A stretch of 52,003 nt of DNA from Actinomycetaceae bacterium (GTDB lineage: Bacteria > Actinomycetota > Actinomycetes > Actinomycetales > Actinomycetaceae): positions 10,225-62,227 of the forward strand of contig JAUNHH010000014.1 of NCBI GenBank assembly GCA_030524055.1. Reading direction: 5' to 3'. The position numbers and the translations under genes are program-made. Below, in pieces: positions 1,924 to 51,315 of the stretch (position 1 is its first letter; each line of letters begins with the position of its first letter). The notes under the pieces were generated by a model, which saw only the letters and a program-made list of their open reading frames with translations, was not told the origin of the DNA and made no database searches.

Positions 1924-1940
1924 GCCCCGCCCTCGTCAAT
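1924..1940 (-). repeat. 13-mer repeat ACGAGGGCGGGGC, exact copy
   Basis: Minus-strand reading ATTGACGAGGGCGGGGC, in the non-coding region upstream of leuS. This is one of the fullest matches to the extended consensus. Confidence 0.85.
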
Positions 1941-2164
1941 GGGATGACAGCGGACCCTCCACACCAGGCTCGCGCAGGAAATCCCGCCCCAGCACCCCAC
2001 ACCAACCCCTGCAGTCGCTCTTGGTGAACACTCCAGCACTGGCCCGTCACGGTGCACTATCCTTGGACAGGGTTTGGAACGCGCTCGCGCAAGCACTCAA
2101 GCTCGCCTAGACGCAAACTCAAACCCACACCACATCATGATGTCACCGTGAGGATCACGTACCA

Positions 2165-5104
2165 ATGTCAACCACGCCAACGCCCGCCACCATTCCGGCC
2201 CACCGCTACACCGCGGAAATGGCAGGACAGCTCGAACTTAAGTGGCAGGACCGTTGGGACGAGCTTGGCACTTTCAACGCTGACAATCCGGTGGGTCCTC
2301 TTGCCGGGCCACTGGCCGAAAAAGAACCCTTCTTCCTGCTCGACATGTTCCCTTACCCGTCGGGTAAAGGCCTCCATGTTGGCCACCCACTGGGCTACAT
2401 CGCCACCGACACAGTGGCGCGTTTCCGCCGCATGAAGGGGCAAAACGTCCTCTACACGATGGGCTATGACGCTTTTGGCTTGCCCGCAGAGCAATACGCC
2501 GTCCAAACCGGCCAACACCCGCGCATTACCACGGAAGACAATATTGCGAATATGCGCCGCCAGCTGCGTCGAATGGGCTTGTCTCATGATCGCCGCCGCT
2601 CGCTGGCTACCACTGATATCGAGTATGTCCGCTGGACACAGTGGATTTTCCTGCAGATCTTCAACTCGTGGTTTGATCCCGAGGCCACCGCGCCCGACGG
2701 CTCGATTGGCGCCGCCCGCCCTGTCGCCGAGCTTCGCGAAAAGCTGGCAGCGGGCACCATTGCCACACCTGACGGCCGCCCATGGGCTGACCTGACCCCC
2801 GTTGAGCAGGCAAAAGTCATTGATTCCTGCCGCCTTGCCTATATTTCCGAAGCACCCGTGAACTGGTGCCCGGGATTGGGAACGGTGCTGGCCAATGAGG
2901 AAGTCACCGCTGAAGGGCGCTCCGAGCGCGGAAACTTCCCCGTCTTTAAACGGAATCTCCGCCAGTGGATGATGCGCATTACCGCTTACGGTCAGCGCCT
3001 TTCCGACGATCTCGACACCATTAACTGGCCCGACAAAGTCCGCACGATGCAACGCAATTGGATCGGGCGTTCTGAAGGTGCCAATGTCACCTTCCCCATT
3101 CCTTCTGCTCACGAGGTCGGGGCTGCGCCGGAGTCTCTGGAGGTCTACACCACCCGGCCGGACACCCTTTTTGGTGCGACCTTTATGGTGGTTGCTCCTG
3201 AACACCCGATTCTGGGCGGCACTTTCGGCGGCGAAGCTGATGACGCGGCGGCCCTGACTGTTGCCGAGACCTGGCCCGAAGGCACCCGCGAAGCGTGGAC
3301 CGGCGGCTATGCCACCCCGCGTGAAGCAGTGGCCACCTACCGCGCCCAGGCGGCAGCAAAAACCGAAATGGAACGCGCCGCAGAAGACCGCGAAAAAACC
3401 GGCGTCTTCACAGGCTTCTTCGGCGTCAACCCGGTCAATGGCCGTGAAATCCCTGTTTTTGTCGCTGACTACGTCCTGTGGGGCTATGGCACCGGTGCGA
3501 TTATGGCCGTGCCTGCCCACGATCAACGTGACTGGGATTTTGCCCGGGCTTTTGATTTGGAGATTATCCGAACCATTGGTGCCGCCGAGGATCCTTATGG
3601 CCATGACCTGGGTGAATCCGCCTATGTTGGCGATGGCGTGGCCGTTGATTCCGCCAATGACGATATTGATCTGGGCGGAATGAGTAAAGACGAAGCAAAG
3701 GCTGCGATGACGGCGTGGCTGGAGTCCACAGGGCAGGGCCGTGGGGCTGTCACCTACCGCCTGCGCGATTGGCTTTTCTCGCGTCAACGCTATTGGGGCG
3801 AGCCTTTCCCCATTGTCTGGGATGAGGACGGGGTGGCTCACGCCCTCCCAGAAGACCAGCTTCCCGTCGAATTGCCGGGGATTTCCGACTATTCGCCGCG
3901 CACATTTGACCCCGAAGACGCCGACACCTCACCGGAAGCTCCACTGGGGCGAGCCGACGAATGGGTCAATGTCACCCTTGATCTTGGTGATGGCCCGCGC
4001 CAGTATCGCCGCGAAACCAATACGATGCCGCAATGGGCTGGCTCGTGCTGGTACGAAATGCGCTATACCGACCCGTCGAATAGTGACGCGTTAGCAGATG
4101 CGGCCAATTTGGAGTATTGGATGGGGCCGCGAGAAGGGAAGAAATCCGGCGGCACTGACCTTTATGTGGGCGGCGTTGAGCACGCTGTTTTGCACCTGCT
4201 GTATTCGCGTTTCTGGCAGAAAGTCCTTTTTGATTTAGGGCATGTGCCGGATCCAGAGCCATACCACACTCTTTTTAATCAGGGATATGTGCAGGCTTGG
4301 GCCTATAAGGATGCACGCGGCCAATATGTTCCCGCCGACGAAGTCGAAGGGGATGAAGAATCAGGCTGGACGTGGAATGGCGAAAAAGTCACCCGCGAAT
4401 ACGGGAAAATGGGGAAGTCACTCAAGAATATTGTGACTCCCGATGACATGTATGACGCCTATGGCGCCGACGTTTTCCGCGTCTATGAAATGTCCATGGG
4501 TCCGTTGGACTTGTCGCGCCCGTGGGACACACGCGCAGTTGTGGGTTCTCAGCGTTTCTTGCAGCGCTTATGGCGGAATGTCATTGACGAGAATACCGGT
4601 GAGGTAAATGTTTCTGATGACGCTCCGGACTTAGAAACAGCAAAACTCACCGCACGCACAATTGCTGATGTCACTATTGAGTACGAGAATATGCGGATTA
4701 ATACCGCTATTGCGAAACTCATTGTGCTCAATAATCACCTGACAGGATTAGGGCGGGCTCCCCGCGAATCCATTGAAGCATTAGTGCTCATGGTTTCTCC
4801 TGTGGCGCCGCATATTGCGGAAGAATTATGGCAACGCCTTGGCCATAATGAGTCTTTAGCCCGCGAGCCTTTCCCCGTGGTAATGGATGAGTCATTGCTG
4901 GAAGAAGACGCGGTGACTGCCATTGTTCAGGCCAATGGAAAAGTCCGCGCCAAATTGGACGTCCCGCCGTCGATTTCTGAAGAGGATTTGCGTGAGCAGG
5001 CTTTGCAGGCGGCACCAATTGTGAAATTGCTAGATGGTCGCGAGCCGCTGAAAGTCATTGTTCGCGCGCCTTCCCTGGTCAATATTGTGCTACCAAAGGA
5101 CTGA
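2165..5104 (+). CDS. leuS: Leucyl-tRNA synthetase
   Basis: Charges tRNA-Leu with leucine in the cytosol. The 979-residue length fits actinobacterial class I LeuRS (about 950-980). The HIGH-type motif is HVGH at 71-74. The CP1 editing domain follows (about 250-460, with [20 protein letters not shown] near 335). The KMSKS loop reads KMGKS at 748-752, with Gly in place of the first Ser. An anticodon-binding domain ends the protein (about 800-979). It starts 4 bases after CCA within GTACCAATG, with GAGGAT upstream. The DNA glycosylase gene follows after only 5 bases, so the two are probably co-transcribed. A 557-residue open frame on the opposite strand is a shadow caused by codon bias. Confidence 0.97.
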
Positions 5105-5109
5105 CATTT

Positions 5110-6162
5110 ATGCCTGAAGGAGATGCCGTCCGGCGCCTAGCGGACACTTTCGAGGAAGTATTCGTTGGCCACCGATTACAGGTGACGTCTCCACAGGGGC
5201 GTTTTGCGTCGTCGGCGACCACACTCGACGGCTGGGTACTTTCCGCCGCCCGCGTGGTCGGCAAGCACATGTTTTTGGGGTTCACCCCGCCCTCGTCAGT
5301 AAAAGACAGTATTGACGAGGGCGGGGCCAACACCCCACAAATAGCCACCGATATTTCTGTCATTGACCACTGGGTCCACATTCACTTAGGACTGTACGGC
5401 TGGTGGCGTTTTAATGGCGACTCGTCTGTAATGGATGAGGGGCATGGCGTGGTCCACCGGGTCGGCCCGAAAGATAGCCACCGGGCAGAACGGTGGGGTA
5501 CGGGGCCGTTAAATCCGGCTGATGGCGACAATGTGGCCCCTGTTGCCAGCGGCGTACCCGCCGAAACTCACGGCGACGAGCAGTGGGATGCTCCGGACCC
5601 TATTGGGCAAGTCCGCCTGCGTCTTTTGGCTGACCATGCGGTGGCTGACCTAGCTGGGCCAAATACCTGCGCCCTGATTACCACTGAAGAACGACTGGCT
5701 GTCGAAAAGCGCCTTGGACCCGATCCTTTAGCGCCGGGTGCGCGCGATAATGCTGAAATGCGTTCCCGGTTTATTGCGAATATGCGCGGACGTAAACGCG
5801 CTATTGGCGAGTTAATTATGGACCAGTCCCTCATTGCGGGGGTAGGCAATATTTACCGGGCCGATGCGCTATTTCTCGCCGGTATTTCACCTCTGCGAAT
5901 CGGCAGCCGTATTTCAGAAAAGCGGCTCGGTGAACTATGGGGCCTGATTTGCGACCTGATGAATCGCGGACTCGCTGCTGGATACCTTATTACTATGGAC
6001 CCTGAAGAGGCGCCGCAACCGCCTATTGACGGTGATGAGGAAGCGTCGCGTTGGTATGTTTACCATCGCACTGGGCGCCCCTGTCTCCGTTGCGGAACGG
6101 CAATATCCGAGAAGCAGATGCAAGGACGACGCCTATTCTGGTGTTCCAATTGTCAACGATAA
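5110..6162 (+). CDS. Fpg/Nei-family DNA glycosylase with repeat-derived insertions
   Basis: Base-excision-repair glycosylase/AP lyase for oxidised bases. MPEGD at the N-terminus provides the catalytic Pro2 and Glu3, and this form is typical of the actinobacterial Nei (endonuclease VIII-like) branch. VGKHMFLGF supplies the beta-hairpin lysine region. The helix-two-turn-helix (about 225-270) and a C-terminal zinc finger (two CxxC pairs at the end) are intact. At 350 residues it is longer than usual (about 260-290). One extra loop (residues about 58-75) is exactly encoded by an inverted pair of the 13-mer repeat. A second extra segment (about 105-165) starts with VMDEGHG, a decayed-looking copy. 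All catalytic landmarks remain, so it is probably active. Confidence 0.9.
   Translation: MPEGDAVRRLADTFEEVFVGHRLQVTSPQGRFASSATTLDGWVLSAARVVGKHMFLGFTPPSSVKDSIDEGGANTPQIATDISVIDHWVHIHLGLYGWWRFNGDSSVMDEGHGVVHRVGPKDSHRAERWGTGPLNPADGDNVAPVASGVPAETHGDEQWDAPDPIGQVRLRLLADHAVADLAGPNTCALITTEERLAVEKRLGPDPLAPGARDNAEMRSRFIANMRGRKRAIGELIMDQSLIAGVGNIYRADALFLAGISPLRIGSRISEKRLGELWGLICDLMNRGLAAGYLITMDPEEAPQPPIDGDEEASRWYVYHRTGRPCLRCGTAISEKQMQGRRLFWCSNCQR
5285..5326. repeat. Inverted pair of the 13-mer repeat inside the glycosylase gene
   Basis: A minus-oriented copy (5285-5300) and a plus-oriented exact copy (5311-5326) face each other across a 10-base loop, with one mismatch in a 16-bp stem. The pair is in frame and encodes roughly PPSSVKDSIDEGGA, a loop absent from ordinary Fpg/Nei proteins. 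Confidence 0.85.
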
Positions 6163-6235
6163 TTAAGAGTTGCGATCTTTAGTCCTGGCACCTAATATGT
6201 GACCTGCATATCAACACCGATTGGAGGTAGCACTA

Positions 6236-7261: not shown

Positions 7262-7290
7262 TGCTTGCGCCTCACCTGTTGCGGTAATAC

Positions 7291-7322
7291 TGGGGGTCTG
7301 GGCGTCATTGCCCGGACCCCCA
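7291..7322. terminator. Bidirectional hairpin terminator
   Basis: A 13-bp stem (TGGGGGTCTGGGC against GCCCGGACCCCCA, one G-T pair) with a 6-base loop is followed by TTCTTTT. It ends the hydrolase transcript. A second hairpin (CGGGTCGG/CCGACCCG, 7339-7364) lies beside it and probably ends the converging GNAT gene. Confidence 0.85.
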
Positions 7323-7376
7323 TTCTTTTACGCAAGACCGGGTCGGTATCTGAGAGCCGACCCGAATAGCGCCGAC

Positions 7377-7880: not shown

Positions 7881-8123
7881 GACACGAGTGTATGTGACTC
7901 AAGGCACCTGCATTGGGCCATTCGTCGCGGAGTGTACAGATTCAGATTTTTTAGGCCGCCTGTTACCAGCGTGGATGAGTAGCCAATAACCTTTCTCAGG
8001 CATCATGGAATTCGTACTGAAGAATCCTGATTAGCTATTGAACTGCGGTGTTATCGTTGGTGCAGGCACACCAGAACTGCACTGGAATATTGCCGATCCA
8101 TCAACCAGTGAAGGGATGAAGAA

Positions 8124-9665: not shown

Positions 9666-9719
9666 CCATTCACGAGGGCGGGGCGCGTAAATCATTGGCT
9701 ACCCCGCCCTCGTGAATGG
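9666..9719. terminator. Terminator-like hairpin built from two 13-mer repeats
   Basis: Plus copy 9666-9683 and minus copy 9702-9719 form a perfect 18-bp stem (CCATTCACGAGGGCGGGG and its complement) around an 18-base loop. It begins eight bases after the lipoprotein stop. The position suggests a transcription terminator, though no T tract follows. Confidence 0.7.
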
Positions 9720-13577: not shown

Positions 13578-13619
13578 ACGAGGGCGGGGCCGGATTTGCT
13601 GGAGGCGAAACCCGGCCCC
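13578..13619. terminator. 13-mer repeat merging into hairpin between cysK and cysE
   Basis: An exact plus-strand 13-mer (13578-13590) overlaps the left arm of a perfect 8-bp stem, GGGGCCGG (13586-13593) with CCGGCCCC (13612-13619), loop 18 bases. It lies just after the cysK stop (minus strand) and could attenuate read-through into cysE. Confidence 0.6.
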
Positions 13620-13628
13620 ATACATACG

Positions 13629-14736: not shown

Positions 14737-15405
14737 TCAACTGTAGAGTTGTGCCCCGCCCTCGTCCACCTCAATGATTTTTTTGCCCACTTCGTGGAAT
14801 GTGCTCCCACCCTGTGTCAAGCGTGCTAACAGCTCTTTTGCCGCGGATTTCTGCGCATTTCTCACCCCTATATCGAGGGAAACGACCTGTCCCCATGTAA
14901 CAGAAAGGACCTCGACCCCAAGGCTGCGCATTTCTGCTTCGATCCTGCCTGCGCTGTCAATGGGCACATCTGCCTGCCACACATCTAAAGGCAGTAGGCG
15001 CGCACGTGGAGCTAATGCCAACCCCTCAGAAACGGCAGAAGAATAGGCGCGCACTAACCCGCCTGCCCCTAACAGGACCCCACCGAAATAGCGCGTGACC
15101 ACTGCCGTCACATTCCACGTTCCTGCTGCCCGCAAGGCTTCCAACATGGGAGTCCCCGCAGTGCCAGCAGGCTCACCATCGTCACTGGAATGTTGATGAG
15201 GCGAATGACCATCCTCGTGAATAAGGAAAGCACTACAGTTGTGGCGCGCTTGGGGGTGGGTGGCGCGAACCTCGTCAATCAGGGCTCGGGCAGCAGCCGG
15301 GGTATCTGTGCGGGCAATCCGCGCAATAAAACGGGAGCGTTTAATCTCGATCTCGTGGATAAGATCCACCCCAGATCGCACGGTGAGAAGTCCGCTGCTG
15401 TCCAT
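14737..15405 (-). CDS. yigZ: YigZ/IMPACT-family protein
   Basis: 222 residues. The N-terminal IMPACT domain (about 15-130) carries the diagnostic SDDGEPAGTAGTPMLEAL and the YFGGVLLGAGGLVRAYSSA motif, and a C-terminal DUF1949-type domain follows. Family members are linked to translation/ribosome-associated regulation, with exact biochemistry unsettled. The last residues, VDEGGAQLYS, are encoded by an exact 13-mer repeat, so the repeat has extended or replaced the C-terminus. It lies 48 bases downstream of the CobW-like gene and is probably co-transcribed with it. Confidence 0.9.
   Translation of the reverse strand: MDSSGLLTVRSGVDLIHEIEIKRSRFIARIARTDTPAAARALIDEVRATHPQARHNCSAFLIHEDGHSPHQHSSDDGEPAGTAGTPMLEALRAAGTWNVTAVVTRYFGGVLLGAGGLVRAYSSAVSEGLALAPRARLLPLDVWQADVPIDSAGRIEAEMRSLGVEVLSVTWGQVVSLDIGVRNAQKSAAKELLARLTQGGSTFHEVGKKIIEVDEGGAQLYS
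14753..14768 (-). repeat. 13-mer repeat, exact copy in the yigZ 3' end
   Basis: Sense orientation relative to yigZ, read as V-D-E-G-G-A six residues before the stop codon. Confidence 0.85.
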
Positions 15406-16987: not shown

Positions 16988-17292
16988 TGGCAAAGAAATC
17001 CAAAATCGCCCGCAACCTCCAACGAGAAAAAATCGTTGAACGCTACGCCCAGCGCCGCGCGGAACTGAAAAAAGCCTCCGTCAACCCGCACCTTTCCGCA
17101 GAAGAACGCGAAGAAGCAATGCGGGCCCTCCACGCGCTGCCCCGTGACGCTTCGCCCACACGTTTACGAGGCCGGGGCGTCAGCGACGGCAGACCCCGCG
17201 GGTACCTGCGCCGTTTTGGACTCTCCCGCGTCGAATTCCGGCGCATGGCTCTACGTGGAGAACTCCCCGGAGTCGTCAAATCCTCCTGGTGA
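16987..17292 (+). CDS. rpsN: Ribosomal protein S14, zinc-free form
   Basis: 101 residues, the long cysteine-free S14 (the zinc form is about 61 residues with CxxC). Typical core: [38 protein letters not shown]. Its start overlaps the rpmG stop (TAATG). The gap to rpmE2 is 74 bases and carries a 13-mer repeat. Confidence 0.94.
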
Positions 17293-17317: not shown

Positions 17318-17334
17318 GCCCCGCCCTCGTTCAT
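17318..17334 (-). repeat. 13-mer repeat, exact copy inside the ribosomal-protein operon
   Basis: Lies in the rpsN-rpmE2 gap and interrupts an otherwise gap-free operon. A one-mismatch copy lies 140 bases upstream within rpsN on the plus strand (17166-17178). Confidence 0.85.
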
Positions 17335-18170: not shown

Positions 18171-18380
18171 GCTGTGGTGGGTGGGTTGTCGGGCTGGCGG
18201 CGCCTGGGCCGGGTGGTTGGGGCTTGCCGGGTCCGGGCGGCGTTGCTGTTTGGCTGGGTGTTTAGGCTGGTGAGGCGGTTGTGTTTGCGGCTTTTGCTGT
18301 TCTGCCGTGTTCATTGACGAGGGCAGGGCCGGATTTTTAGTGGCGGCTGTTGTTTTCGGGCGGGTGCTGCGCACCAAACC

Positions 18381-22668: not shown

Positions 22669-23447
22669 GAGGCAACCTCAAAAAGAAAAGGCGAGCCTGA
22701 GGCCATTTCGTAGGCGCTGTGCACATTATCTGCGGTGAAACATGAGTCAACTGGCCCGCTGTCAATAATCGTGCGATTCAACAGCGTCACATAGTCGCAA
22801 TAGTTCCGTACATTGCTGAGATCATGGTGGACAAAAACTACCGTTTTACCCTGCTCGCGCAAGGTATGAAGTACGGAAATAATTGCCTGCTGGCTTTTTG
22901 CGTCAATGCCCTGGAAAGGCTCGTCCATAAAGAAGATATCGGGGTTTTGCGCGAGGGTACGCGCAAGAAAAGCACGTTGACGTTGCCCGCCGGAAAGCTC
23001 ACCAATGGGGCGCGCTGCTAAATCAGCTATTCCGGTTTGCTCCAATGCGGCCATGGCGCGATCGCGTTCTTTTTTGCCCGGACGGCGAAACCAGCCGAGG
23101 TCACCGTATGTGCCCATTGTTGCCACATCTAATACCGACGTCGGGAAATCCCAATCCACACTATTAGATTGCGGCATATAGCCAATCCTTTTACGCACGG
23201 CACTCAGCGGCTGCCCAAAGAACTCGCAGCTACCAGCCAGTGGTTTAACCAGTCCAAGCATCGCTTTAATCAGTGTGGACTTCCCGGCACCATTGGGGCC
23301 AATAATGCCCATAATGATCCCAGTTGGCACTCGAAAATCCACATTGAGTAAAACAGGATCGGCGTGATAAGCCACGGAAAGATTCTGTGTAGAGCAGGCT
23401 AGGGGAGAGGCAGCCCCACCCTCGTCACTGTGCGTATTTAACCCCAT
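22665..23447 (-). CDS. Metal ABC transporter ATPase
   Basis: 260 residues. Walker A GPNGAGKST (about 52-60), signature LSGGQ (about 152), Walker B IFFMDEPFQGID, and H-loop FVHHDL are all intact. ZnuC/MntB-like (manganese/zinc branch: MPQSNSVDWDFPTSVLDVATMG). The first 20 residues (THSDEGGAASPLACS) are an extension encoded partly by a one-mismatch 13-mer repeat (23413-23425). The ATPase fold starts at about residue 20. Confidence 0.92.
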   Translation of the reverse strand: MGLNTHSDEGGAASPLACSTQNLSVAYHADPVLLNVDFRVPTGIIMGIIGPNGAGKSTLIKAMLGLVKPLAGSCEFFGQPLSAVRKRIGYMPQSNSVDWDFPTSVLDVATMGTYGDLGWFRRPGKKERDRAMAALEQTGIADLAARPIGELSGGQRQRAFLARTLAQNPDIFFMDEPFQGIDAKSQQAIISVLHTLREQGKTVVFVHHDLSNVRNYCDYVTLLNRTIIDSGPVDSCFTADNVHSAYEMASGSPFLFEVAS

Positions 23448-25552: not shown

Positions 25553-25569
25553 GCCCCGCCCTCGCAGAT
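25553..25569 (-). repeat. 13-mer repeat, one mismatch
   Basis: GCCCCGCCCTCGC, directly after repeat copy C. Confidence 0.7.
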
Positions 25570-25814: not shown

Positions 25815-25831
25815 GCCCCGCCCTCGTCCAT
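25815..25831 (-). repeat. 13-mer repeat, exact copy
   Basis: Minus-strand ATGGACGAGGGCGGGGC in the non-coding region ahead of the winged-helix gene. Confidence 0.85.
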
Positions 25832-27326: not shown

Positions 27327-27675
27327 TTCGTGCTCCGCAGGTGGGGTGGAATAGGGGATAGTTACGAGGGCGGGGCCCGCGTGATCAATCGAGGCTTCTT
27401 TGTATCTACGTACTTGTTAGGCGCGTTTGAGGCTACTCGCTCCCTTCCATGGGTGACGCCCGTTACGGAACTTCTTTCTTACTGTGAGCATAGCTTCTCG
27501 GATGAAGATACTCTAATTGCAGGCAATTGTTTTCTGCGCAGTTCATGCCTAACTATGTCTTAAGAGGCGAGTTCATCAGCAAATACTCCTCTTCGCGTCT
27601 GGCAGTCTTCTGCCTCATTTCCCCTTCGGGGGACTCTGTGACACTTTCCTTCACACTTTCGGAAGGCTGAGAGTA
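27327..27675. promoter_or_regulatory. Shared divergent promoter region
   Basis: 349 bases between the two paralogues. It contains an exact 13-mer repeat (27364-27376) and a small CCCC-TTC-GGGG hairpin (27621-27631). A 77-codon open frame (27330-27563) runs through the repeat but looks fortuitous. Confidence 0.5.
27364..27376 (+). repeat. 13-mer repeat, exact copy
   Basis: Preceded by GTT rather than ATTG; about 38 bases upstream of the lipoprotein start. Confidence 0.85.
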
Positions 27676-29673: not shown

Positions 29674-30312
29674 GTGACTACAAAACTCAAGGACCCTTTA
29701 GTGTGGATTGATTGCGAAATGACGGGGCTGGATCCTCGCCGTGACGCACTTATTGAGGTGGCAGTGGTAATTACCGATGCTGACCTGAATATTGTCGATC
29801 CTGGCATTGACATCCTTATTACTCCGCCAGCCGAAGCATTGGAGAATATGGGCGACTTTGTCCGCCAAATGCATACTTCTTCTGGTCTTCTCGATGACCT
29901 TGCTCATGGCGTGACAATGGAAGAAGCTACTGAGACGGTTTTGTCTTATGTGCGTCGTTTTGTTCCCACCCCAAAGAAGGGGCTTCTTGCGGGAAATTCA
30001 ATCGGCACCGATAAAGTCTTTCTCGAAGCAAATATGCCGGCACTGATAGAGCACCTGCATTACCGCGTGGTCGATGTCTCTACCATTAAGGAACTCACGC
30101 GGCGCTGGCAACGCCGCGTCTTTGAGGGAGCCCCTGCAAAACAGGGTGGGCACAGGGCGCGCGCTGACATTTTGGAATCCATCCAAGAACTCGCCTACTT
30201 CCGCCGCGCACTCTTCCCCACCGAGCAGGTCACTTCCCAAGAGGCCGCCATTGCCGCGCAGGAAATCCTCGCATTGCGGATTCCTTCCACTGGTGACGAG
30301 GCCGGGGCCTAA
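29674..30312 (+). CDS. orn: Oligoribonuclease
   Basis: 3'-5' exoribonuclease that clears two- to five-nucleotide RNAs, including pGpG. 212 residues, starting at GTG 29674. DEDDh residues: D13 and E15 (WIDCEMTGLD), D113 (GNSIGTDK), H160 and D165 (HRARADI). The C-terminal extension ends GDEAGA, encoded by a one-mismatch 13-mer (30296-30308). It is divergent from ilvA across 101 bases. Confidence 0.95.
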   Translation: MTTKLKDPLVWIDCEMTGLDPRRDALIEVAVVITDADLNIVDPGIDILITPPAEALENMGDFVRQMHTSSGLLDDLAHGVTMEEATETVLSYVRRFVPTPKKGLLAGNSIGTDKVFLEANMPALIEHLHYRVVDVSTIKELTRRWQRRVFEGAPAKQGGHRARADILESIQELAYFRRALFPTEQVTSQEAAIAAQEILALRIPSTGDEAGA

Positions 30313-30477: not shown

Positions 30478-31218
30478 ATGACTGAACTCAGAACAGTGAC
30501 ATTACGAGGCCGAGTTGGCACTGACGTTATTGTCACTACAACTCCCCGAGGACATGTCTGTGCCCGCTTCCGTCTAGCGGTGGGCCAATGGCGCGTCGAT
30601 GACAATGGTGAGTTCCAGGAAACAGGAACCAATTGGTACACCATTAAGGCCTGGGACACCTTGGCAGAAAATGTGCGTTCTTCTGTGCTGAAAGGCCAGA
30701 AGATTATTGTCGTTGGCAAACCTGTGGCCGAAGCGTGGCTAGATAGAAATCACCAGGCGCGCGGCGAGCTCGTGATTGTGGCCGCTAGCATTGGGCACGA
30801 TCTGACGGCTGGCCCGTCGCGTGCCCTCATGGTGCAAACACCAAAAGGCGACTCATCGCGACCATCTGCCTCAACTCACGAGGGCGGGACAACACCCAAC
30901 CAGGGGGCAACGATGACTCACGGCCCAGCAGATGGTGACCAGCACTGGCACAGCGCACCACCCGGGGAAGGATCAGCGCCAAACACGGGAGCGGACACCT
31001 ACGGGACGACACCACCCATTAACGCCGCGGGCACTGCACCGATGACAGAGGGTGCCAGTGCACCCAATAGGGAATACGTAACAGATCCGCCTGCCCCGCC
31101 AGAAGAGGACTACCCCGAAGACGGCTACGCGCCGGATAGTGAAGACGTGGCAGCTGGGGAAGACCGTGAACCGGCGTTAAGTGGAGTCGGAGCATTCGCT
31201 GGAGCTTATGACACGTAA
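30478..31218 (+). CDS. ssb: Single-stranded-DNA-binding protein paralogue
   Basis: 246 residues. The OB fold spans about 1-110 (VTLRGRVGTD, ARFRLAV, TNWYTIKAWDTLAENV, KGQKIIVVGKPV). The long tail is Gly/Pro/Thr-rich and includes THEGGTTPN, encoded by a one-mismatch 13-mer (30878-30890). The tail ends GAYDT rather than the DDxxPF acidic tip of replicative SSB, so it probably does not recruit the usual partners and is more like SsbB. GTGGAGG precedes the ATG. The three DnaA boxes lie 90-160 bases upstream. Confidence 0.85.
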   Translation: MTELRTVTLRGRVGTDVIVTTTPRGHVCARFRLAVGQWRVDDNGEFQETGTNWYTIKAWDTLAENVRSSVLKGQKIIVVGKPVAEAWLDRNHQARGELVIVAASIGHDLTAGPSRALMVQTPKGDSSRPSASTHEGGTTPNQGATMTHGPADGDQHWHSAPPGEGSAPNTGADTYGTTPPINAAGTAPMTEGASAPNREYVTDPPAPPEEDYPEDGYAPDSEDVAAGEDREPALSGVGAFAGAYDT

Positions 31219-33146: not shown

Positions 33147-33163
33147 GCCCCGCCCTCGTGCAA
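33147..33163 (-). repeat. 13-mer repeat, exact copy
   Basis: Directly after the ettA terminator and just before the tesB stop codon. Confidence 0.85.
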
Positions 33164-36753: not shown

Positions 36754-36766
36754 ACGAGGGCGGGGC
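36754..36766 (+). repeat. 13-mer repeat, exact copy
   Basis: Nine bases after the malQ stop, in the 46-base gap before the converging EIIA gene. Confidence 0.85.
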
Positions 36767-37658: not shown

Positions 37659-37675
37659 GCCCCGCCCTCGTTAAT
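37659..37675 (-). repeat. 13-mer repeat, exact copy overlapping a stop codon
   Basis: The TAA stop of the HAD phosphatase lies in the first bases of the motif (AATTAACGAGGGCGGGGC), so the repeat begins exactly at the end of the gene. Confidence 0.85.
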
Positions 37676-41826: not shown

Positions 41827-44800
41827 GTGGCTAAAAAAAAGGCAAAGACGCCAATGTCCAATAGAAAGTTCGTCGGGATATGGGGCACACTCATTGCATT
41901 TCTCGCTGTGCTCCTCATCGTTCTCAATATCGCGATTGGTGTATTCGATAAGTGGATTGGTACCCAATGGGGAGCAGGGGAATACAAGGTCACGAATAGT
42001 GCTGCAGCCCAAAGTTGGGATACTTCCTACTACACCAGCGACTACGAAGATCTTGATTCACACGCTTCCGCTGCTAGCGCACTGATTGAAGAAATCGAGG
42101 GCGAGGGAATCGTTTTAGCAAAGAACGAGGGCGGGGCACTGCCACTCAATAGCGGCGCAAAAATTACGATGTTTGGCCGCGCCGCTGCTGACCCTGTTTA
42201 TGGCGGAGCGGGTTCTGGCTCTGTTGATGTCTCCACAGCAGTCAATGCCCGCACAGGCTTAGAAAATGCAGGATTCGCTATTAATGATGCTGTCTACCAG
42301 ACCATTGCTACCTACGCGGAAAGCAATGGCCGTGGCGAGATCGTGATGGATAAAGAAGAGGAATCCAGCTACACCATTGGTGAACTCCCCGTCGATCAAT
42401 ATAAAGCCCAGCAATCGACCTTCGCTGGCTTTAAAGATGCTGCTGTGGTGTTTATTGGCCGGCCCGGTGGTGAAGGTGGTGATTTGACCCGCGACATGTC
42501 GAAATGGGATCCAAATCCCACCCCCGGTCAGCACCAATTGGAACTCAATAAAGACGAGCGTGACCTTATTGAGTTGGCTAAAGCCAACTTCGACAAAGTG
42601 GTGATTGTCATTAATGCCTCCACCACTATGGAACTCGGTGATATTCAAAAAGATACGGGCGTGGACTCTATTCTCCTGGTTGGTTCCCCCGGATTATCTG
42701 GCTTTAATGCGGTTGGCCATGTGCTGGCCGGTAAAGTCAATCCCTCTGGCCATACCAGTGATATTTGGGCAGCGGACTTTACGAAGGATCCCACCTATGT
42801 GAATTTCGGTGACTTCGTTTACGAGAACCTCAAGGTCTCTTACCCGTCCTCCGCCCTCGGAAATGTTGCCTCCAACCAGGAAATCTCCGAAGAGGCCACC
42901 TTCGTCAATTACCAAGAAGGCATCTATATGGGCTACCGCTATTATGAAACGGCCGCCGCTGAAGGATTTATTAACTACAACGATGCTGTGGTCTACCCCT
43001 TTGGTTATGGATTGTCCTATACGAATTTCCAATGGGCAGTAAAAGGCAATACCTTTGGCAAGGTTGATGGCACCATTAAAGTTGATGTGGCTGTCACCAA
43101 TACTGGCACGGTGCCTGGTAAAGATGTCGTTCAGGTCTATTACTCTGCTCCCTACACAAAGGGCGGAATTGAAAAGTCAGAGGTTGTCCTGGGCGGCTTT
43201 GCTAAGACTCCGATTATTGCCCCTGGCGCGACAGAAACTGTCACTGTGGAATTCCCAGTTGAAGAAATGGCCTCCTATGACTACGAGGGCGCAAAAGCCT
43301 ATGTTCTAGAAAAAGGTACCTACGAGATCACTGTGCGCACCGACTCTCACACTATTGCTCCGCAAACCCAGGTCTTGCCCTACGTTGTGGCAGAAACTGT
43401 GACCTACGGGGACGATAATCCCAGGGCATCTGATGCGGGGGTCGCAGGTAACCGTTTTAATGATGTCTCCGCCCAATTCACTGACGACCCCAGCGAAACC
43501 AATAAGATCCTGAATATGTCCCGCGCGGACTTTGCGGGCACATTCCCCAAAGCGCCAACAAAAGAACAACGTCAGGCCCCCGATGCTGTGCAATCAGATT
43601 TCGCAGTGTGGAATACCAAGGCCATGGCCCAAACTGCCTCCGTGCAAAAGCCAAAAACCGGCGTTGACACTGATTTAACCCTGGTGGATATGCGTGGTCT
43701 TCCCTATGACGATCCGAAATGGGATCAGCTTTTGGATTCGCTGACCGTTGACGAGATGAGCGAAGTGCTTCTCAATGGCGCCTACAACTCGGCGGCTATT
43801 CCCTCTATTGCCAAACCTGCTGTTGTTGACCTTGACGGCCCCGCAGGATTCTCCTCATTCATTAATGCCTCCATTAATGGCCCGGCGTACACATCCGAAT
43901 TCCTTATTGCGCAAACATGGAATGTGGAATTGGGGAAGAAAATGGGCGAAATGATGGGTAATGAATCCCTGCTCAAAAAGGTTTCCGGATGGTATGCGCC
44001 CGCAATGAATTTGCACCGCTCACCTTTTGCTGGCCGCAACTTCGAGTACTACTCAGAAGACCCCCTTCTGTCAGGAAAAATGGCAGCAGCAGTCTCTCAA
44101 GGCGCGGCAAATAAGGGCCTGTACACCACCTTGAAGCACTTTGCTCTCAATGACCAGGAAACAAATCGTGTGAATAATGGTGTCGCCACCTGGGCCACCG
44201 AACAAACGATTCGTGAATTGTATTTGCGGCCTTTCGAAATCGCCATCAAAGAGGTAAAGGTTCCCGTCACCTATATTTCTGACGATAAAGGCACCCTGGC
44301 CCAGTCAGAAACTGGTGCAATGGCAGTAATGAGTGCCTTTAACCGGGTTGGCGCCACCTGGGCTGGTGGGTCGAAGCCGCTGATGACAGGTGTCTTGCGG
44401 CAAGAATGGGGCTTTCGTGGATTCGTTATTACGGACTTCAACCTCTACAACTATATGAGTCCCGATCAAGGCATTTATGCTGGTTCGGATTTGACCCTGT
44501 CATTCGCACCATCAAAGGCCTTTGAAGACACCTCCTCAGATTTTGCTGTGACCAATATGCGCACCGCCACCAAGAACATTCTCTATAGCGTGGCAAACTC
44601 CAATGCGATGGTTGGCCTGGCTCCCGGTGCAACGGTGACCTATACGCCACCCGCATGGCAATACGCGCGGTGGATTATTACCGCATTGGTGGCTGCACTA
44701 CTGGCTGGAGGCGCATTCATGGTTGTTAGACGAGTGCGTGCCCATTCAGGCAATCCTGTTGAGGATGGGGCTGGCACCTCGTCTACCGCACAGGCAGTCT

Positions 44801-44907
44801 TGGCCAGTGATAAGAGCACGTCAAGCGATAAAGCGGACTCTGGCACTGACGAGAAAGACACCTCCACTGACGCTGATCACGGCGTTTCAGATAGTGCCGA
44901 GAAGTAA
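41827..44907 (+). CDS. Membrane-anchored GH3 hydrolase with permuted domain order
   Basis: 1026 residues. A transmembrane helix near the N-terminus (about 16-42) and another near the C-terminus (about 943-963) hold the enzyme to the membrane. The GH3 C-terminal domain comes first (about 90-330, VLAKNEGGALPLN...GRAAADP...GGEGGDLTRD), then the fibronectin-III-like domain (about 375-510, VYPFGYGLSYTNF), and the catalytic barrel last (about 620-900), with nucleophile D870 in GFVITDFNL. This inverted order is known in a subset of GH3 enzymes. LVDMRGLPYDDPKWDQLLDSLTVDEM marks the start of the barrel. Confidence 0.85.
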   Translation: MAKKKAKTPMSNRKFVGIWGTLIAFLAVLLIVLNIAIGVFDKWIGTQWGAGEYKVTNSAAAQSWDTSYYTSDYEDLDSHASAASALIEEIEGEGIVLAKNEGGALPLNSGAKITMFGRAAADPVYGGAGSGSVDVSTAVNARTGLENAGFAINDAVYQTIATYAESNGRGEIVMDKEEESSYTIGELPVDQYKAQQSTFAGFKDAAVVFIGRPGGEGGDLTRDMSKWDPNPTPGQHQLELNKDERDLIELAKANFDKVVIVINASTTMELGDIQKDTGVDSILLVGSPGLSGFNAVGHVLAGKVNPSGHTSDIWAADFTKDPTYVNFGDFVYENLKVSYPSSALGNVASNQEISEEATFVNYQEGIYMGYRYYETAAAEGFINYNDAVVYPFGYGLSYTNFQWAVKGNTFGKVDGTIKVDVAVTNTGTVPGKDVVQVYYSAPYTKGGIEKSEVVLGGFAKTPIIAPGATETVTVEFPVEEMASYDYEGAKAYVLEKGTYEITVRTDSHTIAPQTQVLPYVVAETVTYGDDNPRASDAGVAGNRFNDVSAQFTDDPSETNKILNMSRADFAGTFPKAPTKEQRQAPDAVQSDFAVWNTKAMAQTASVQKPKTGVDTDLTLVDMRGLPYDDPKWDQLLDSLTVDEMSEVLLNGAYNSAAIPSIAKPAVVDLDGPAGFSSFINASINGPAYTSEFLIAQTWNVELGKKMGEMMGNESLLKKVSGWYAPAMNLHRSPFAGRNFEYYSEDPLLSGKMAAAVSQGAANKGLYTTLKHFALNDQETNRVNNGVATWATEQTIRELYLRPFEIAIKEVKVPVTYISDDKGTLAQSETGAMAVMSAFNRVGATWAGGSKPLMTGVLRQEWGFRGFVITDFNLYNYMSPDQGIYAGSDLTLSFAPSKAFEDTSSDFAVTNMRTATKNILYSVANSNAMVGLAPGATVTYTPPAWQYARWIITALVAALLAGGAFMVVRRVRAHSGNPVEDGAGTSSTAQAVLASDKSTSSDKADSGTDEKDTSTDADHGVSDSAEK
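42125..42137 (+). repeat. 13-mer repeat match in GH3 coding sequence
   Basis: Exact 13-base match read as N-E-G-G-A. Here the residues are also expected from the GH3 family (KNEGGALPL), so selection for protein sequence may explain it. Confidence 0.5.
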
Positions 44908-44925
44908 AGAAGGCATGAATAGCTA

Positions 44926-44969
44926 GGGGAGTACGGCCCCGAGTTGGCACCCGAAGGGCCGCACTCCCC
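44926..44969. terminator. Hairpin terminator
   Basis: GGGGAGTACGGCCC with GGGCCGCACTCCCC (one mismatch in 14 bp), 16-base loop, followed by GCTTCTTTT. Confidence 0.85.
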
Positions 44970-45023
44970 GCTTCTTTTACCGCAATATACGTCTAGATGA
45001 GTATTCAGGGAAAGGACTTTTTC

Positions 45024-47450
45024 GTGACTTCCGCATCGGATCTCACTCTTTTAGAGGCAGCAGCGCTCCTCAGTGGCGCCAGTGAATGGGACTCACGGGC
45101 TCTGCCCGCTAAAGGCATCCCATCCTTCGTCATGTCTGATGGACCTCACGGAATTCGCCGCCAATTAGGTAGTGGAGACCACCTCGGCATTGCCGCATCG
45201 GAACCCGCCACCTGTTTTCCCACCGCCGCCACAGTGGCGAATTCCTGGGACCCGAATCTCTGTGAAGAAATGGGCTCCGCCCTCGGATATGAGGCACGAA
45301 CCCTTGGCGTAGACGTCGTCCTTGGACCCGGCCTGAATATTAAGCGTTCCCCATTATGTGGCCGCAATTTCGAGTACTATTCCGAAGACCCACTTTTAGC
45401 CGGAAAAATGGCTGCTGGACTGGTTCGCGGAATTCAATCTCACGGCGTTGCTGCTACGCCAAAACATTATGCGGTGAATTCTCAGGAATTACGGCGAATG
45501 GCCTCAGATTCCATTATTGATGAGCGTACTCTGCGCGAAATCTACCTCACCGCTTTTGAAATCGTGGTGAAAGAGGCCTCGCCCCGGGCATTAATGTCCT
45601 CCTACAATAAAGTTAATGGCACCTATGCCCATGAAAATGCCCATCTCCTTATTGAGATTCTGCGGAAAGAATGGGGCTTTAATGGGATGGTCGTTTCCGA
45701 TTGGGGTGGATCGAATTCTGCTGTTGATGCCGTGAGCGGCGGCGGAAGTCTAGAAATGCCAGCGCCAGGACTATCCGGTGCCCGTGACATTGTTGAGGCG
45801 GTCAGCCGCGGGGAACTGGCAGAAGAGGATGTGCGGGCACGCGCGCAGGAAGTTCTCAACATTGCCTACCTGGCGCATTCTCACGGTTCACGGCCCGCCC
45901 CTCGCACCGAAGTGCACCACGATCTTGCCCGTCAAGTCGCCCGTGAAAGCGCCGTTTTGCTCCGTAATGATGGGACGCTACCGCTAGCGGCCGGAACGCG
46001 GGTGGCCATTATTGGCGATATGGCCACCACTCCCCGCTACCAGGGGTCAGGATCCTCCCAAGTCAATCCCACGAAGGTCGAGTCCCTGCGGGAGTCGATT
46101 GAGGGTAGCGGCCTGCAGATGGTGGGCTATGCCCAAGGATATGAACGCTTTGGGGCAGCCAACCAGGCCCTTATTGACGAGGCAGTCGTTCTGGCCAAGA
46201 AAGCTGACGCGCTGGTCTTAGCCATCGGGCTGGATGAATTATCTGAATCGGAAGGCATGGACCGCGCCCATCTGCGCCTCCCTCAGGTCCAAATCGATCT
46301 TCTGAATGCCCTGCGCGCCACAGGAGTTCCTCTTATTGGGGTGCTCTCTACAGGAGCGCCCATTGAGACCTCCTGGGATGGGCACTGCAATGCCCTCCTC
46401 CATATGTGCCTGTCTGGGCAAGCAGGGGGTGCGGCCGCGTGGGATATTGTGTCGGGCGCTGCCAACCCCAGTGGGCATTTAGCGGAAACGTGGCCACTGG
46501 CATTAGACGACCATCCCACAGCCGATATTTTCCCCGCCACCGGTCGCTACGCACTGTACCGTGAAGGCCCCTATGTGGGATATCGCTATTTCACTACCGC
46601 AGGCAAAAAAGTCGCCTACCCCTTTGGCTGGGGGCTGAGCTATTCCTCCTTTGAGTTCAGCGATCTTCGTATTGACGAGGGCGGGGCGCATGTGCGTATT
46701 CACAATACTTCCGAGCGTGAAGGCGCTGATGTGATTCAGCTTTATGTGACACCACCAGGGGCCGTCTGGGGGCCGACACGGGTTTTACGTGCCTTTACGA
46801 AAGTCACTGTGCCTGCGGGCGACGAAAAAGACGTCACCCTGCCCTTTGATGACTACACATTCCGCCACTTCGATACTGCCACTGGCACATGGCTGCGAGA
46901 AAAAGGGGAGTGGACTATTGCGGTAGGCCATCATTGCAATGACCTTCCACTATCAGGAACACTCACAATAGAGGGCGACACTATTGCCGCTAATCCAGAT
47001 ATTCCTGAGGTATATCGCACGGGCCAGGTCCGCAGCGTGAAAGACGCCGATTTTGCTATCCTTTTAGGCCGGCATATTCCCCAGGAAGACGCCAGTCGCG
47101 CATTGCAAGCTGATGATCCATTGTCAGCAATGAGCCGTGCAAAAAATCCCTTGGCACGCCTTGCTGCCAGATTTATTGATAGTCGGCGCCGCGCCGCAGA
47201 AAAACGCGGAAAACCAGATCTCAATATTCTTTTCGTCCAGAATATGCCTTTTAGAGCCATTGGGAAGATGACGCATGGAGCTGTCCCTCCAGCCGCTGTT
47301 GAAGGAATCGTCGATCTGGTCAATGGACATTTCTGGAAGGGCGCTAGCCGCGTTATTGGCATTGTCTGGAAAGCGCGGCGCCTTGACCGAAACACTCAAC
47401 GTATCCTCGATGGTTTATCGAGTGACATCCCCCTCTCAAAGACACAATAA
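45024..47450 (+). CDS. GH3 beta-glucosidase, probably cytosolic
   Basis: 808 residues from GTG 45024, chosen because GGAAAGGA lies seven bases before it; ATG 44997 has no ribosome-binding site. Standard order: barrel (about 1-260, nucleophile D226 in GMVVSDWGG), C-terminal domain (about 300-540, LLRNDGTLPLAAGTRVAIIGD), fibronectin-III-like domain (about 545-690, VAYPFGWGLSYSSFEF). An extra helical tail (about 690-808) is not typical. RIDEGGAHVRI in the FnIII domain is encoded by an exact 13-mer. No signal peptide. Confidence 0.9.
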   Translation: MTSASDLTLLEAAALLSGASEWDSRALPAKGIPSFVMSDGPHGIRRQLGSGDHLGIAASEPATCFPTAATVANSWDPNLCEEMGSALGYEARTLGVDVVLGPGLNIKRSPLCGRNFEYYSEDPLLAGKMAAGLVRGIQSHGVAATPKHYAVNSQELRRMASDSIIDERTLREIYLTAFEIVVKEASPRALMSSYNKVNGTYAHENAHLLIEILRKEWGFNGMVVSDWGGSNSAVDAVSGGGSLEMPAPGLSGARDIVEAVSRGELAEEDVRARAQEVLNIAYLAHSHGSRPAPRTEVHHDLARQVARESAVLLRNDGTLPLAAGTRVAIIGDMATTPRYQGSGSSQVNPTKVESLRESIEGSGLQMVGYAQGYERFGAANQALIDEAVVLAKKADALVLAIGLDELSESEGMDRAHLRLPQVQIDLLNALRATGVPLIGVLSTGAPIETSWDGHCNALLHMCLSGQAGGAAAWDIVSGAANPSGHLAETWPLALDDHPTADIFPATGRYALYREGPYVGYRYFTTAGKKVAYPFGWGLSYSSFEFSDLRIDEGGAHVRIHNTSEREGADVIQLYVTPPGAVWGPTRVLRAFTKVTVPAGDEKDVTLPFDDYTFRHFDTATGTWLREKGEWTIAVGHHCNDLPLSGTLTIEGDTIAANPDIPEVYRTGQVRSVKDADFAILLGRHIPQEDASRALQADDPLSAMSRAKNPLARLAARFIDSRRRAAEKRGKPDLNILFVQNMPFRAIGKMTHGAVPPAAVEGIVDLVNGHFWKGASRVIGIVWKARRLDRNTQRILDGLSSDIPLSKTQ
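46671..46687 (+). repeat. 13-mer repeat, exact copy in the GH3 FnIII domain
   Basis: ATTGACGAGGGCGGGGC in sense, read as I-D-E-G-G-A between two beta strands (FEFSDLR and HVRIHN). Confidence 0.85.
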
Positions 47451-47458
47451 GGAAGCCC

Positions 47459-48085: not shown

Positions 48086-48103
48086 GTCAGGCGACGATTC
48101 AGC

Positions 48104-49228
48104 GTGCGAGTTGAGAAAAGCGGCCCGGAAAAATTGCCGGACGGTACACAGGTGGGGCACGATGGTGAGGTGACTTCTCCCCAGCACGAGGGCGGCGCCC
48201 CCGATACCCCCGCTCCGCTCCTGTCGGTTATTGTGCCGGCCTACAACTCCCAGGACTATTTGGACCGGGCTCTCCAGTCCCTTGTTGGCTATGGGGATGA
48301 GGTGGAAGTTCTCATCGTTAATGACGGCTCAAGCGACAAAACAGCCGAAATGGCAGACGCATGGGCCGCCAAACACCCTGGCAGGATTAAAGCCATCCAC
48401 CAGGCCAATGCTGGTCACGGTGGCGCGCTGAATACGGGTATCCGCCACGCTACAGGGATTCACCTGAAAGTCCTCGACTCTGATGACTGGATGGACCGGC
48501 AAGCTCTGCGTGAGGTCCTGAACCTCCTGCGCGATATGCGCGACCGTGGAGAAACCCTTGACCTTCTGGTCACGAACTACGTGTATGAAAAGGTCGGCCG
48601 CGCCCACAAAATGGTCATCCGCTACCGCAATGTGCTGCCTGAAGGACGCACCATTGGGTGGGATGAAATGAAGCGCTGCCGCTATGAGCAGTACATGATG
48701 ATGCACGCCCTGGCGTTCCGCACTGAATTAGTGCGCGAATCAGGAATGGTCCTGCCAGAGAAAACCTTCTACGTGGACTATCTCTACTCCCACGTGCCGC
48801 TTCCCTTGGTCCATACCATTCGTTACCTTGACGTGGACCTCTATCGCTACTTTATTGGCCGCGAAGACCAGTCAGTCAACGACAAGGTGATGTTGACTCG
48901 GATTGATCAGCTTCTACGGGTCAATCGCGGAATGATTGAGGCCATGCCAAAGCGTTCCTCAGTGCCGAGGAATCTCTACCGCTATATGGCGCATTACTTG
49001 AGGATTAACTCCGTGTCCTGTTCGGTAATGCTGATGCGGTCAGGCACTCCAGAGCATTTGGAAGCCAAAGAACGCATGTGGCGAGAATTCGCTGAATATA
49101 ATCCTGAAGCCTATGAGGCGGTCACATCGGATCTCCTGGGTCGCATTATTACCCTGCGCGGTCCTATTGGGCGCATGTTGGCCCTCGGTGGCTACCAGGT
49201 CTCCCGGAGAGTTCTCGGCTATAACTAG
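48104..49228 (+). CDS. Family 2 glycosyltransferase
   Basis: 374 residues in the longest frame (GTG 48104). GT-A core: LLSVIVPAYNSQDYLDRAL (about 40), VLIVNDGSSDKT (about 70), and LDSDDWMD with the metal-binding DxD (about 126). The first 38 residues are outside the fold and include HEGGAPD, encoded by a one-mismatch 13-mer (48186-48198). The true start is uncertain; other GTG codons at 48152 and 48170 are in frame. Its stop overlaps the stop of the converging sensor kinase gene. Confidence 0.87.
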   Translation: MRVEKSGPEKLPDGTQVGHDGEVTSPQHEGGAPDTPAPLLSVIVPAYNSQDYLDRALQSLVGYGDEVEVLIVNDGSSDKTAEMADAWAAKHPGRIKAIHQANAGHGGALNTGIRHATGIHLKVLDSDDWMDRQALREVLNLLRDMRDRGETLDLLVTNYVYEKVGRAHKMVIRYRNVLPEGRTIGWDEMKRCRYEQYMMMHALAFRTELVRESGMVLPEKTFYVDYLYSHVPLPLVHTIRYLDVDLYRYFIGREDQSVNDKVMLTRIDQLLRVNRGMIEAMPKRSSVPRNLYRYMAHYLRINSVSCSVMLMRSGTPEHLEAKERMWREFAEYNPEAYEAVTSDLLGRIITLRGPIGRMLALGGYQVSRRVLGYN

Positions 49229-50571: not shown

Positions 50572-50604
50572 CGGGATCTACCACTATCTGAGTACGCCCT
50601 CTCA

Positions 50605-51315
50605 TTACCGCACCCCTCCAAGAAACTCAGTTAACGCTGAGAGAAAAGCTTTTTTACGGGGCCGAGAAATACGTAATTCTGTGCCGCCACTCATATGGCA
50701 ACTTTGATTGCGTACTCCTTGAACATGAGCAAGATTCACCAGATAACAGGAATTAGAGCGGAAGAAAGAATGCGGCTCCAACTGAGCTTCCATATCTTTC
50801 AGTGTCCCGTTAAGCGTAATATTTTCTTTCGTTGTATAGACGACAAGGCGGTGTTTAATCGACTCAATATAGATAATGTCGCTAATATCGACTCTCTGTA
50901 ATGTGGTGCCGCTGTGAAGGGTAAGCGATACAGGTTTGCGTTTCCTCACCGTCGCAATACAGCGAGTGAGTTCCTGCTCGAATGCAAACCAGGGGAGGGG
51001 CTTAAGTAAATAGGACAAGGCGTCAACTTCATAGCCTTTAATTGCGAATTGTGGGGCCGAAGTAATAAAGATCAGGACCACTTGATCATCAAGAGTGCGA
51101 ATATGGCGCGCAGCAGTGAGACCGTCAATATGCTCCATTTGAATATCAAGGAGCACAATGTCATAGATGGGCCGGTAGTGAGAAAGAATTCGTGCCCCGT
51201 CCTCGTAAATATCAATGGAGAAAGTGACGTCATGTGCGCTTTCGTAACGTTCTAAATAGTCAAGAAGGAGTTTTTGGGCACTAGGGTCATCTTCGACAAT
51301 GCCAATGCGGAACAT
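50605..51315 (-). CDS. LytTR-family response regulator
   Basis: 236 residues. Receiver domain (about 1-120) with D8, D9, phospho-D57 (VLLDIQM), T85 and K106; LytTR DNA-binding domain (about 135-230, LHSGTTLQRVDISDIIYIES...FFRSNSCYLVNLAHVQ). Partner of the downstream kinase. Targets unknown; the adjacent AEC gene and glycosyltransferase locus are candidates. Confidence 0.93.
   Translation of the reverse strand: MFRIGIVEDDPSAQKLLLDYLERYESAHDVTFSIDIYEDGARILSHYRPIYDIVLLDIQMEHIDGLTAARHIRTLDDQVVLIFITSAPQFAIKGYEVDALSYLLKPLPWFAFEQELTRCIATVRKRKPVSLTLHSGTTLQRVDISDIIYIESIKHRLVVYTTKENITLNGTLKDMEAQLEPHSFFRSNSCYLVNLAHVQGVRNQSCHMSGGTELRISRPRKKAFLSALTEFLGGVR
51194..51210 (-). repeat. 13-mer repeat, one mismatch in the response-regulator gene
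   Basis: ATTTACGAGGACGGGGC, read Y-E-D-G-A. The protein context can explain it, so its membership is uncertain. Confidence 0.4.

Follow-up and report, generated by a model that had tools for sequence, protein, structure and literature searches.

DNA uptake sequences are described for only two families, the Gram-negative Neisseriaceae and Pasteurellaceae, according to the available text of a 2025 paper (PMC12616744). The DNA uptake sequence (DUS) of the Neisseriaceae occurs in eight dialects, is received by the minor pilin ComP, and is experimentally proven in function. The uptake signal sequence (USS) of the Pasteurellaceae, AAGTGCGGT / ACAAGCGGT, has a 9-nt core with AT-rich regions downstream, and is reported at densities of 31-913 per Mb (PMC12616744, available text). 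A screen of Veillonella for DUS of at least 10 bp present at least 100 times found none, as given in the accessible part of the report (PMC5397411). For Micrococcus luteus, which is transformed by means of Flp/Tad components, the accessible part of one paper describes orthologues of ComEA, ComEC and DprA, the abolition of transformation by loss of comEC, and a requirement for two tad loci together; its main text nowhere uses the term 'uptake sequence' (PMC4322843). The subject of this report is a 13-mer, ACGAGGGCGGGGC, dispersed through a stretch of 52,003 nt (the window) from the genome of an Actinomycetaceae bacterium, labelled G000. Judged by its sequence features, this motif (the tag, or dialect A) is probably a DNA uptake sequence, by which an actinomycete capable of natural transformation would recognize its own DNA.

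The tag shares with the Neisseriaceae DUS the presence of hundreds of copies, the use of both strands and the location of many copies in genes, and also inverted pairs (linked to terminators in the DUS, putatively so here) and dialects that track phylogeny and keep a short invariant core (PMC3630211, PMC12616744, both in their available text). It differs in its unrelated sequence and in its host, a monoderm actinomycete with Tad loci in which a ComP-like receptor was not identified, whereas the Neisseriaceae are diderm beta-proteobacteria with type IV pili; the function of the DUS is established by experiment and the Actinomycetaceae tag is known here from sequence alone. Overlapping density, a core with an AT-rich flank and inverted pairs that serve, or here would serve, as terminators are shared with the Pasteurellaceae USS, for which the available text of PMC12616744 gives an unrelated core; the Actinomycetaceae tag has a GC-rich core of 13 bp and its AT-rich stretch lies upstream. 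A comparison with the published inner cores CTG and GCGG, as given in the available text of the same paper, finds CTG and CAG absent from the motif and GCGG present without the rest of the USS. The motif would work like DUS and USS, yet is not a homologous member of them, since its core and its phylum are different. ACGAGGGCGGGGC also passes a screen of the kind applied to Veillonella (criterion as stated in the accessible part of PMC5397411), and the comEA/comEC genes, DprA and the two tad loci of G000 resemble the set described for M. luteus (PMC4322843, accessible part). Literature searches, which covered titles and the starts of abstracts and had most subscription journals and bioRxiv outside their reach, did not find reports of uptake sequences for Actinobacteria, Actinomyces or Actinomycetota. 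A literature search for the letters of the motif returned, by title, only human or plant work.

Within the window, 24 sites match the tag with at most one mismatch, compared with a mean of 0.09 and a largest count of 1 in 100 dinucleotide-preserving shuffles. The initial annotation, which had placed the motif far above chance, was correct in this and in all of its 13 exact copies (7 on the plus and 6 on the minus strand) and ten one-mismatch copies; it overlooked one site, at 3111 on the plus strand, and its estimate of about 57% GC for the window is replaced by a measured G+C content of 54.5%. Confinement of the copies to the window, which it had named as a refutation, fails because exact copies are spread over the genome: the 3,034,260 bases and 47 contigs of G000 contain 727 of them (363 on the forward strand, 364 on the reverse strand), and the same pattern read backwards, used as control, gives 0 + 0. 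A sample of 437 kb of the genome holds 92 exact copies against 0.075 expected under a fourth-order Markov model. The strands are used in balance, both overall (363/364) and on 240 kb of contig C3 (57 plus and 42 minus), in a draft genome whose ori/ter positions are not mapped. Clusters of sites are spaced more regularly than random in 397 kb, with a coefficient of variation (CV) of 0.70 versus 0.94 ± 0.07, and a CV this low was reached in 0 of 2000 random-placement simulations; the longest gap between clusters matches the expectation from random placement. On contig C3 at 92297-97729, an open reading frame (ORF) of 1810 aa lies beside a low-GC (0.50) stretch that is free of the motif and possibly acquired.

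The 169 sites with at most one mismatch in 377 kb yield the logo a-t-t-g-ACGAGG(G)CGG(G)GC, in which conservation begins about 4 bases upstream and ends at the final C, a span of about 17 bp. The ATTG-like prefix noticed earlier is confirmed, though its conservation is weak (A 63%, T 56%, T 52%, G 47%). By gene classes that are approximate, being assigned with the author's own simple gene finder, 94 of these sites are intergenic, 71 coding and 4 across gene ends. Intergenic sites number 38 in 13.0 kb of convergent gaps, 36 in 27.9 kb of tandem gaps and 18 in 19.5 kb of divergent gaps; 6 sites at the edges of stretches were left without a gap class. Orientation relative to transcription (same/opposite) is unbiased in tandem gaps (17/18) and balanced in convergent (24/23) and divergent gaps (11/8).

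Neighbouring sites at most 60 bp apart form 21 pairs among 201 sites in 437 kb, versus 5.5 expected if placed at random, and 20 of the 21 are inverted (p = 2e-5). Convergent gaps hold 15 of the pairs, tandem gaps 3 and genes 3. The midpoint of the convergent pairs lies 24-143 bp, mostly 24-60 bp, off the flanking stops, and the stems of close pairs often reach, by eye, into the AT-rich prefix. At most 42 of the 201 sites belong to close pairs, and most copies are single. By analogy with DUS and USS, the inverted pairs look like bidirectional terminators made from two tags. The earlier statement that inverted pairs stand at gene ends is half correct for the window: one pair is indeed intergenic, with an exact copy at 9672..9684 (+) as left arm and a one-mismatch copy at 9701..9713 (-) as right arm, between ORFs that end at 9657 and start at 9756 (both +). 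The other, with a one-mismatch left arm at 5284..5296 (-) and an exact right arm preceded by ATTG at 5315..5327 (+), lies instead within ORF 5110-6162, whose product has Fpg-type H2TH and zinc-finger domains. A scan of genome contigs for the inverted pair returned 31 stretches, of which two are from Actinomyces culturomici and Schaalia vaccimaxillae (both Actinomycetaceae, Actinomycetota). Motif counts and listed positions of genus member G013 agree with A. culturomici strain Marseille-P3561, those counts of G004 agree with S. vaccimaxillae DSM 15804, and G000 groups with these two species. Among the 7 of 31 scan genomes in which copies were counted, five from outside the Actinomycetaceae relatives hold 3-8 copies each, and their matches are read as chance GC-rich hairpins.

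The tag has at least three forms within the Actinomycetaceae. Dialect A was surveyed, as the initial annotation had proposed for related genomes, in 98 genomes (35 of the host genus, 25 others of the family and 38 others of the order), and the 13-mer proved frequent only within the host genus. It is present in 727 copies in G000, 162 in G013, 104 in G015, 80 in G014, 71 in G017 and 69 in G007, and in lower numbers in G029 (31), G009 (21), G004 (13) and G020 (12); the other members of the genus hold 0-8 copies and the genomes outside it 0-6 each. Dialect B, ACGAGGCCG(G/T)GGC, was revealed by de novo k-mer counts. Among the 35 genus members it has 482 copies in G011, then 420, 385, 374, 370, 349, 333, 278 and 250, and 93 in G031, with reversed controls of 0-2 in these ten carriers; it is found alongside dialect A in G013 (164) and G000 (129), and at 0-36 copies in the other 23 members. 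On a protein tree of 20 genomes, of which the dialect-B carriers G010, G019 and G022 are not part, the carriers G011, G012, G023, G025, G028, G034 and G031 form one clade (support 1.000) and G000 groups with G015 (support 0.988). Dialect C, ATT(G/T)CCGAGGGCG, was found in 80 kb of G039, a member of another genus, and is present genome-wide there in 194 + 180 = 374 copies with a reversed control of 0. Elsewhere among the 151 Actinomycetaceae searched it has 15-49 copies in four of the ten g23 genomes (1-6 in the other six), 17-26 in all three g55 genomes, 15 in G000 and at most 13 in the remaining genomes. Densities are about 240 per Mb for dialect A in G000, 102-190 for nine dense B genomes and 156 for dialect C. 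The core CGAGG(G/C)CG is common to all three. Pooled over dialects A and B, the pattern occurs 0-860 times in the 12 members drawn from the genus and at most 22 times in other genera, among the 151 Actinomycetaceae. The pattern ATTNNCGAGGGCG, counted in 149 genomes of the order, occurs 443 times in G000, 26 times in G052 and at most 10 times outside the family, where the sampled genomes stay close to background. In six genomes, dialect-B inverted pairs about 35-39 bp apart were seen in what appear to be the same two gaps between genes of the comEC locus, a sameness judged without gene-by-gene synteny.

Several genus members, for example G003, G030 and G032, are near zero for dialects A and B, and a k-mer family like those of A-C was not found in samples of 80-100 kb from G001, G002, G006, G016, G024, G026 and G030. 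In 100 kb of G003, ACGAGGGCGAC occurs 12 times (reversed 0) and accounts for 6 of the 16 CGAGGNCG sites that lie between genes, and this form is possibly a further dialect. Intergenic CGAGGNCG sites compared with reversed ones number 143/10 in G000, 34/3 in G034 and 17/2 in G039. In several relatives of 63-72% GC, most CGAGG k-mers share one frame class of coding DNA or two, and because of this concentration the weak 'dialects' of such relatives are unsafe; the weaker signals in G004, G005, G007, G008, G014, G015, G020 and G033, for which a codon-usage artefact is possible, were not counted as dialects.

Genes contain 97 of the 201 sites sampled in 437 kb, in all six frame and orientation classes. 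For 35 of these 97, the stretches fetched from other members of the genus contain a homologue, defined as a sequence with at least 35% identity that spans the site. Because 82 of the 96 alignments across coding copies are gapless and 14 gapped, substitution is taken as the usual origin of the tag. In the close pair G034/G028, identity is 96.0% at tags versus 91.0% in the flanks, and 16 of 21 tags are fully unchanged (11 of 15 intergenic, 5 of 6 coding).

The competence genes proposed for inspection in the initial annotation are present in G000: a comEA gene (SLBB and HHH_3 domains) adjoins comEC, dprA is present, and there are two tad loci. The locus on contig C19 comprises a TadZ-like gene, TadA, TadB, a DUF4244 Flp-type pilin and TadE/G-like proteins, and that on contig C44 comprises TadA, TadB/C and TadE/G-like proteins, where a gene has no Pfam match, its Tad letter is the author's reading. 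Of 58 genomes, 55 have ComEC; of the 35 genus members, 34 have DprA. Their presence by itself therefore discriminates little. With motif-rich defined as at least 250 copies of A + B, and a strong TadA match as E below 1e-29, both TadA types are present in every one of the 11 motif-rich members of the genus and in 16 of its 24 motif-poor members (Fisher p = 0.04, phylogeny ignored), a weak association of the tag with two TadA types. The seven genus members without the second TadA type have 0-80 copies, and those of G017 and G021 are fragmented or incomplete assemblies; G029 (88% complete) is without the first type.

An uptake sequence is the best supported explanation for the motif. It fits the density, the strand balance, the even spacing and the single copies in genes, and also the convergent inverted pairs, the AT-rich 5' extension, the dialects with a constant core and the com and tad genes. 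In the proposed mechanism, tagged extracellular double-stranded DNA, (ATTG)ACGAGGGCGGGGC, would be bound preferentially by a sequence-specific surface receptor, which putatively sits on or beside a Tad/Flp competence pilus. The bound DNA would be drawn to ComEA, cross via ComEC as a single strand and recombine in a presumably competent species. Uptake enhanced by the tag would favour tagged alleles, and this molecular drive would let tags accumulate genome-wide, mostly via substitution. Where tags meet as inverted pairs between convergent genes, they may be reused as bidirectional terminators. Divergence of the receptor would give rise to lineage dialects around a constant CGAGG-CG core, and the dialects would be a barrier to exchange between species. 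It is rather likely, if a little less so than the function itself, that the Gram-positive Actinomycetaceae hold a third, independently evolved uptake-sequence system, with a Tad/Flp pilus and with dialects as species mating barriers.

Several points weigh against an uptake sequence. No uptake experiment on any carrier of the tag was found. Dialect A is scattered patchily over the tree. One frame class is favoured among the coding copies (46 of 97, with DEGGA-type peptides), so that codon usage or peptide tolerance adds coding copies. Gaps are somewhat commoner at coding tags (14/96) than in control windows (67/730), an excess for which linkers may be the source. GC-rich random 13-mers of the G034/G028 pair are unchanged at 0.67 (intergenic) and 0.77 (coding), which leaves no clear excess for tags. 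Many genus members that are poor in the motif have ComEC, DprA and both TadA types as well. Charge singled out no clear candidate for a sequence-specific receptor, the six Tad pilin-like proteins of G000 and its ComEA being acidic overall (pI, the isoelectric point, 4.6-5.6), and no signs of foreign DNA were found by eye in the longest motif-free gap (12.4 kb).

If the third system is real, it would show that self-specific uptake can do without an outer membrane and without a type IVa minor pilin. Such uptake is a classic puzzle with regard to why tags evolve and how a receptor evolves together with hundreds of them. Another independent case, in a monoderm with a Tad pilus, would supply an outgroup for every hypothesis, and would mean that the outer-membrane secretin is not an indispensable component. 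The dialects would provide testable pairs within one genus, and addition of the tag to DNA is a practical lead for actinomycetes that are hard to transform.

Two other roles were weighed. The motif could be a chromosome-organizing or regulatory site, namely a 13-bp operator bound by some abundant protein of the nucleoid or of transcription that requires about one site per 2-4 kb. This is unlikely on balance: the even spacing, use of both strands, high sequence specificity and AT-rich 5' side suit such a site, but the motif is densest in convergent and sparsest in divergent gaps, the reverse of promoter-linked sites, and inverted pairs between convergent genes are not predicted. An essential nucleoid site is unlikely because relatives of the same genus are without the motif or carry another dialect. 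A second candidate, the arm of an intrinsic bidirectional terminator, in which hairpins of two inverted copies would stop convergent transcripts and single copies would be leftovers, has a low probability. It would account for the inversion of 20 of 21 close pairs, for the 15 in convergent gaps with midpoints 24-143 bp from the stops, and for the dialect-B pairs at apparently the same two comEC-locus intergenic places in several species. The terminator role suggested in the initial annotation can apply only to these paired copies, at most 42 of 201 sites. As the sole function it was rejected for single and coding copies, since 97 sites lie in genes in all frames and the intergenic copies are unoriented relative to transcription. 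Moreover, termination calls for a stem rather than for one conserved 13-mer, and the tags of the Neisseriaceae and Pasteurellaceae are described with the same double use (PMC3630211, PMC12616744, available text).

The remaining explanations are improbable to different degrees. A small mobile palindrome, of the type of repetitive extragenic palindromes (REP) or miniature inverted-repeat transposable elements (MITE), or an insertion product, had been suggested as an alternative; the dispersal, the occurrence of some copies in hairpins and the slight gap excess at coding copies (14/96 vs 67/730 in controls) point towards it, but conservation ends at about 17 bp, most copies are single, and 82 of 96 alignments with tag-lacking homologues of 35 of the 97 coding copies are gapless. 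It is disfavoured by these mostly gapless alignments and is given very little weight. Slightly less still is given to a polar motif for recombination or segregation, either Chi (RecBCD/AdnAB) or the FtsK orienting polar sequences (KOPS) that guide FtsK. Short, non-palindromic and far over-represented as the motif is, polarity was not seen at 363/364 overall and 57/42 on 240 kb (ori/ter not mapped), and Chi/KOPS was rejected on the strand balance, which agrees with the earlier argument from equal orientations. Thirteen bases and dialects are a poor fit to Chi or KOPS. The least probable explanation, to a degree that is nearly negligible, is an artefact of composition or codon usage, with codon runs of the GAC-GAG-GGC type in high-GC genes. 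Such runs would explain the frame concentration of CGAGG k-mers in several relatives of 63-72% GC; the host, however, has just 55% GC, the Markov expectation is 0.075 against 92 copies seen, and the core is enriched in intergenic DNA of G000, the B-clade genomes and G039. Forms A, B and C all show strand balance and an excess between genes, and for them the artefact was rejected.

The genes checked in the window look ordinary and include LeuRS (leucyl-tRNA synthetase), an Fpg-like protein, EttA, MalQ and enzymes of glycoside hydrolase family 3 (GH3). The first exact copy, at 1924..1936 (-), is preceded by CATTG. The overlooked one-mismatch copy ACGAGGTCGGGGC at 3111..3123 (+) lies within the leucyl-tRNA synthetase ORF 2165-5104. 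Further exact copies are present at 13578..13590 (+), 14753..14765 (-), 17318..17330 (-), 25815..25827 (-) and 27364..27376 (+). Two convergent gaps each hold an exact copy: 33147..33159 (-) lies between ORF ends at 33078 (+) and 33174 (-), and 36754..36766 (+) between those at 36745 (+, MalQ) and 36792 (-). The exact copy at 37659..37671 (-) touches the stop-codon end of ORF 37671-38507 (-), that at 42125..42137 (+) is within the GH3 family ORF 41827-44907, and that at 46675..46687 (+), with ATTG before it, is within ORF 44997-47450. The one-mismatch copies at 17166..17178 (+) and 30296..30308 (+) have the dialect-B form ACGAGGCCGGGGC. Others are found at 18317..18329 (+), 23413..23425 (-), 25553..25565 (-), 30878..30890 (+), 48186..48198 (+) and, as ACGAGGACGGGGC, 51194..51206 (-).

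Other repeats were seen in the relatives. G033 has a different dispersed palindrome, GAGTGGTCGC-n-GCGACCAC, whose left half occurs 20 times in 80 kb; it is hairpin-forming by eye and REP- or terminator-like. G004 has tandem or dispersed units of the type TTTTGGGCGTCCCTCGCGGAAG, with GCGTCCCTCG present 13 times in 80 kb and several copies about 22 bp apart. Units of the type CGAAGTCCGCTCTGTTC occur in G014, where the 10-mer core CGAAGTCCGC is found 12 times in 80 kb, partly in tandem. A long dispersed repeat of G020 that starts with CAAGTTTATCAGAGGGAAGGGTGACTGAT is MITE-like, and its start is present 11 times in 100 kb, with one copy diverging. The 12-mers ATTGTGCACCTT (6 copies) and TGCACAGTCGGC (7 copies) in 80 kb of G052 (reversed 0) are possibly another dispersed motif of that genus. 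The window itself begins within a tRNA, of which 1-58 (-) is left and matches the Rfam tRNA family with 41.9 bits.

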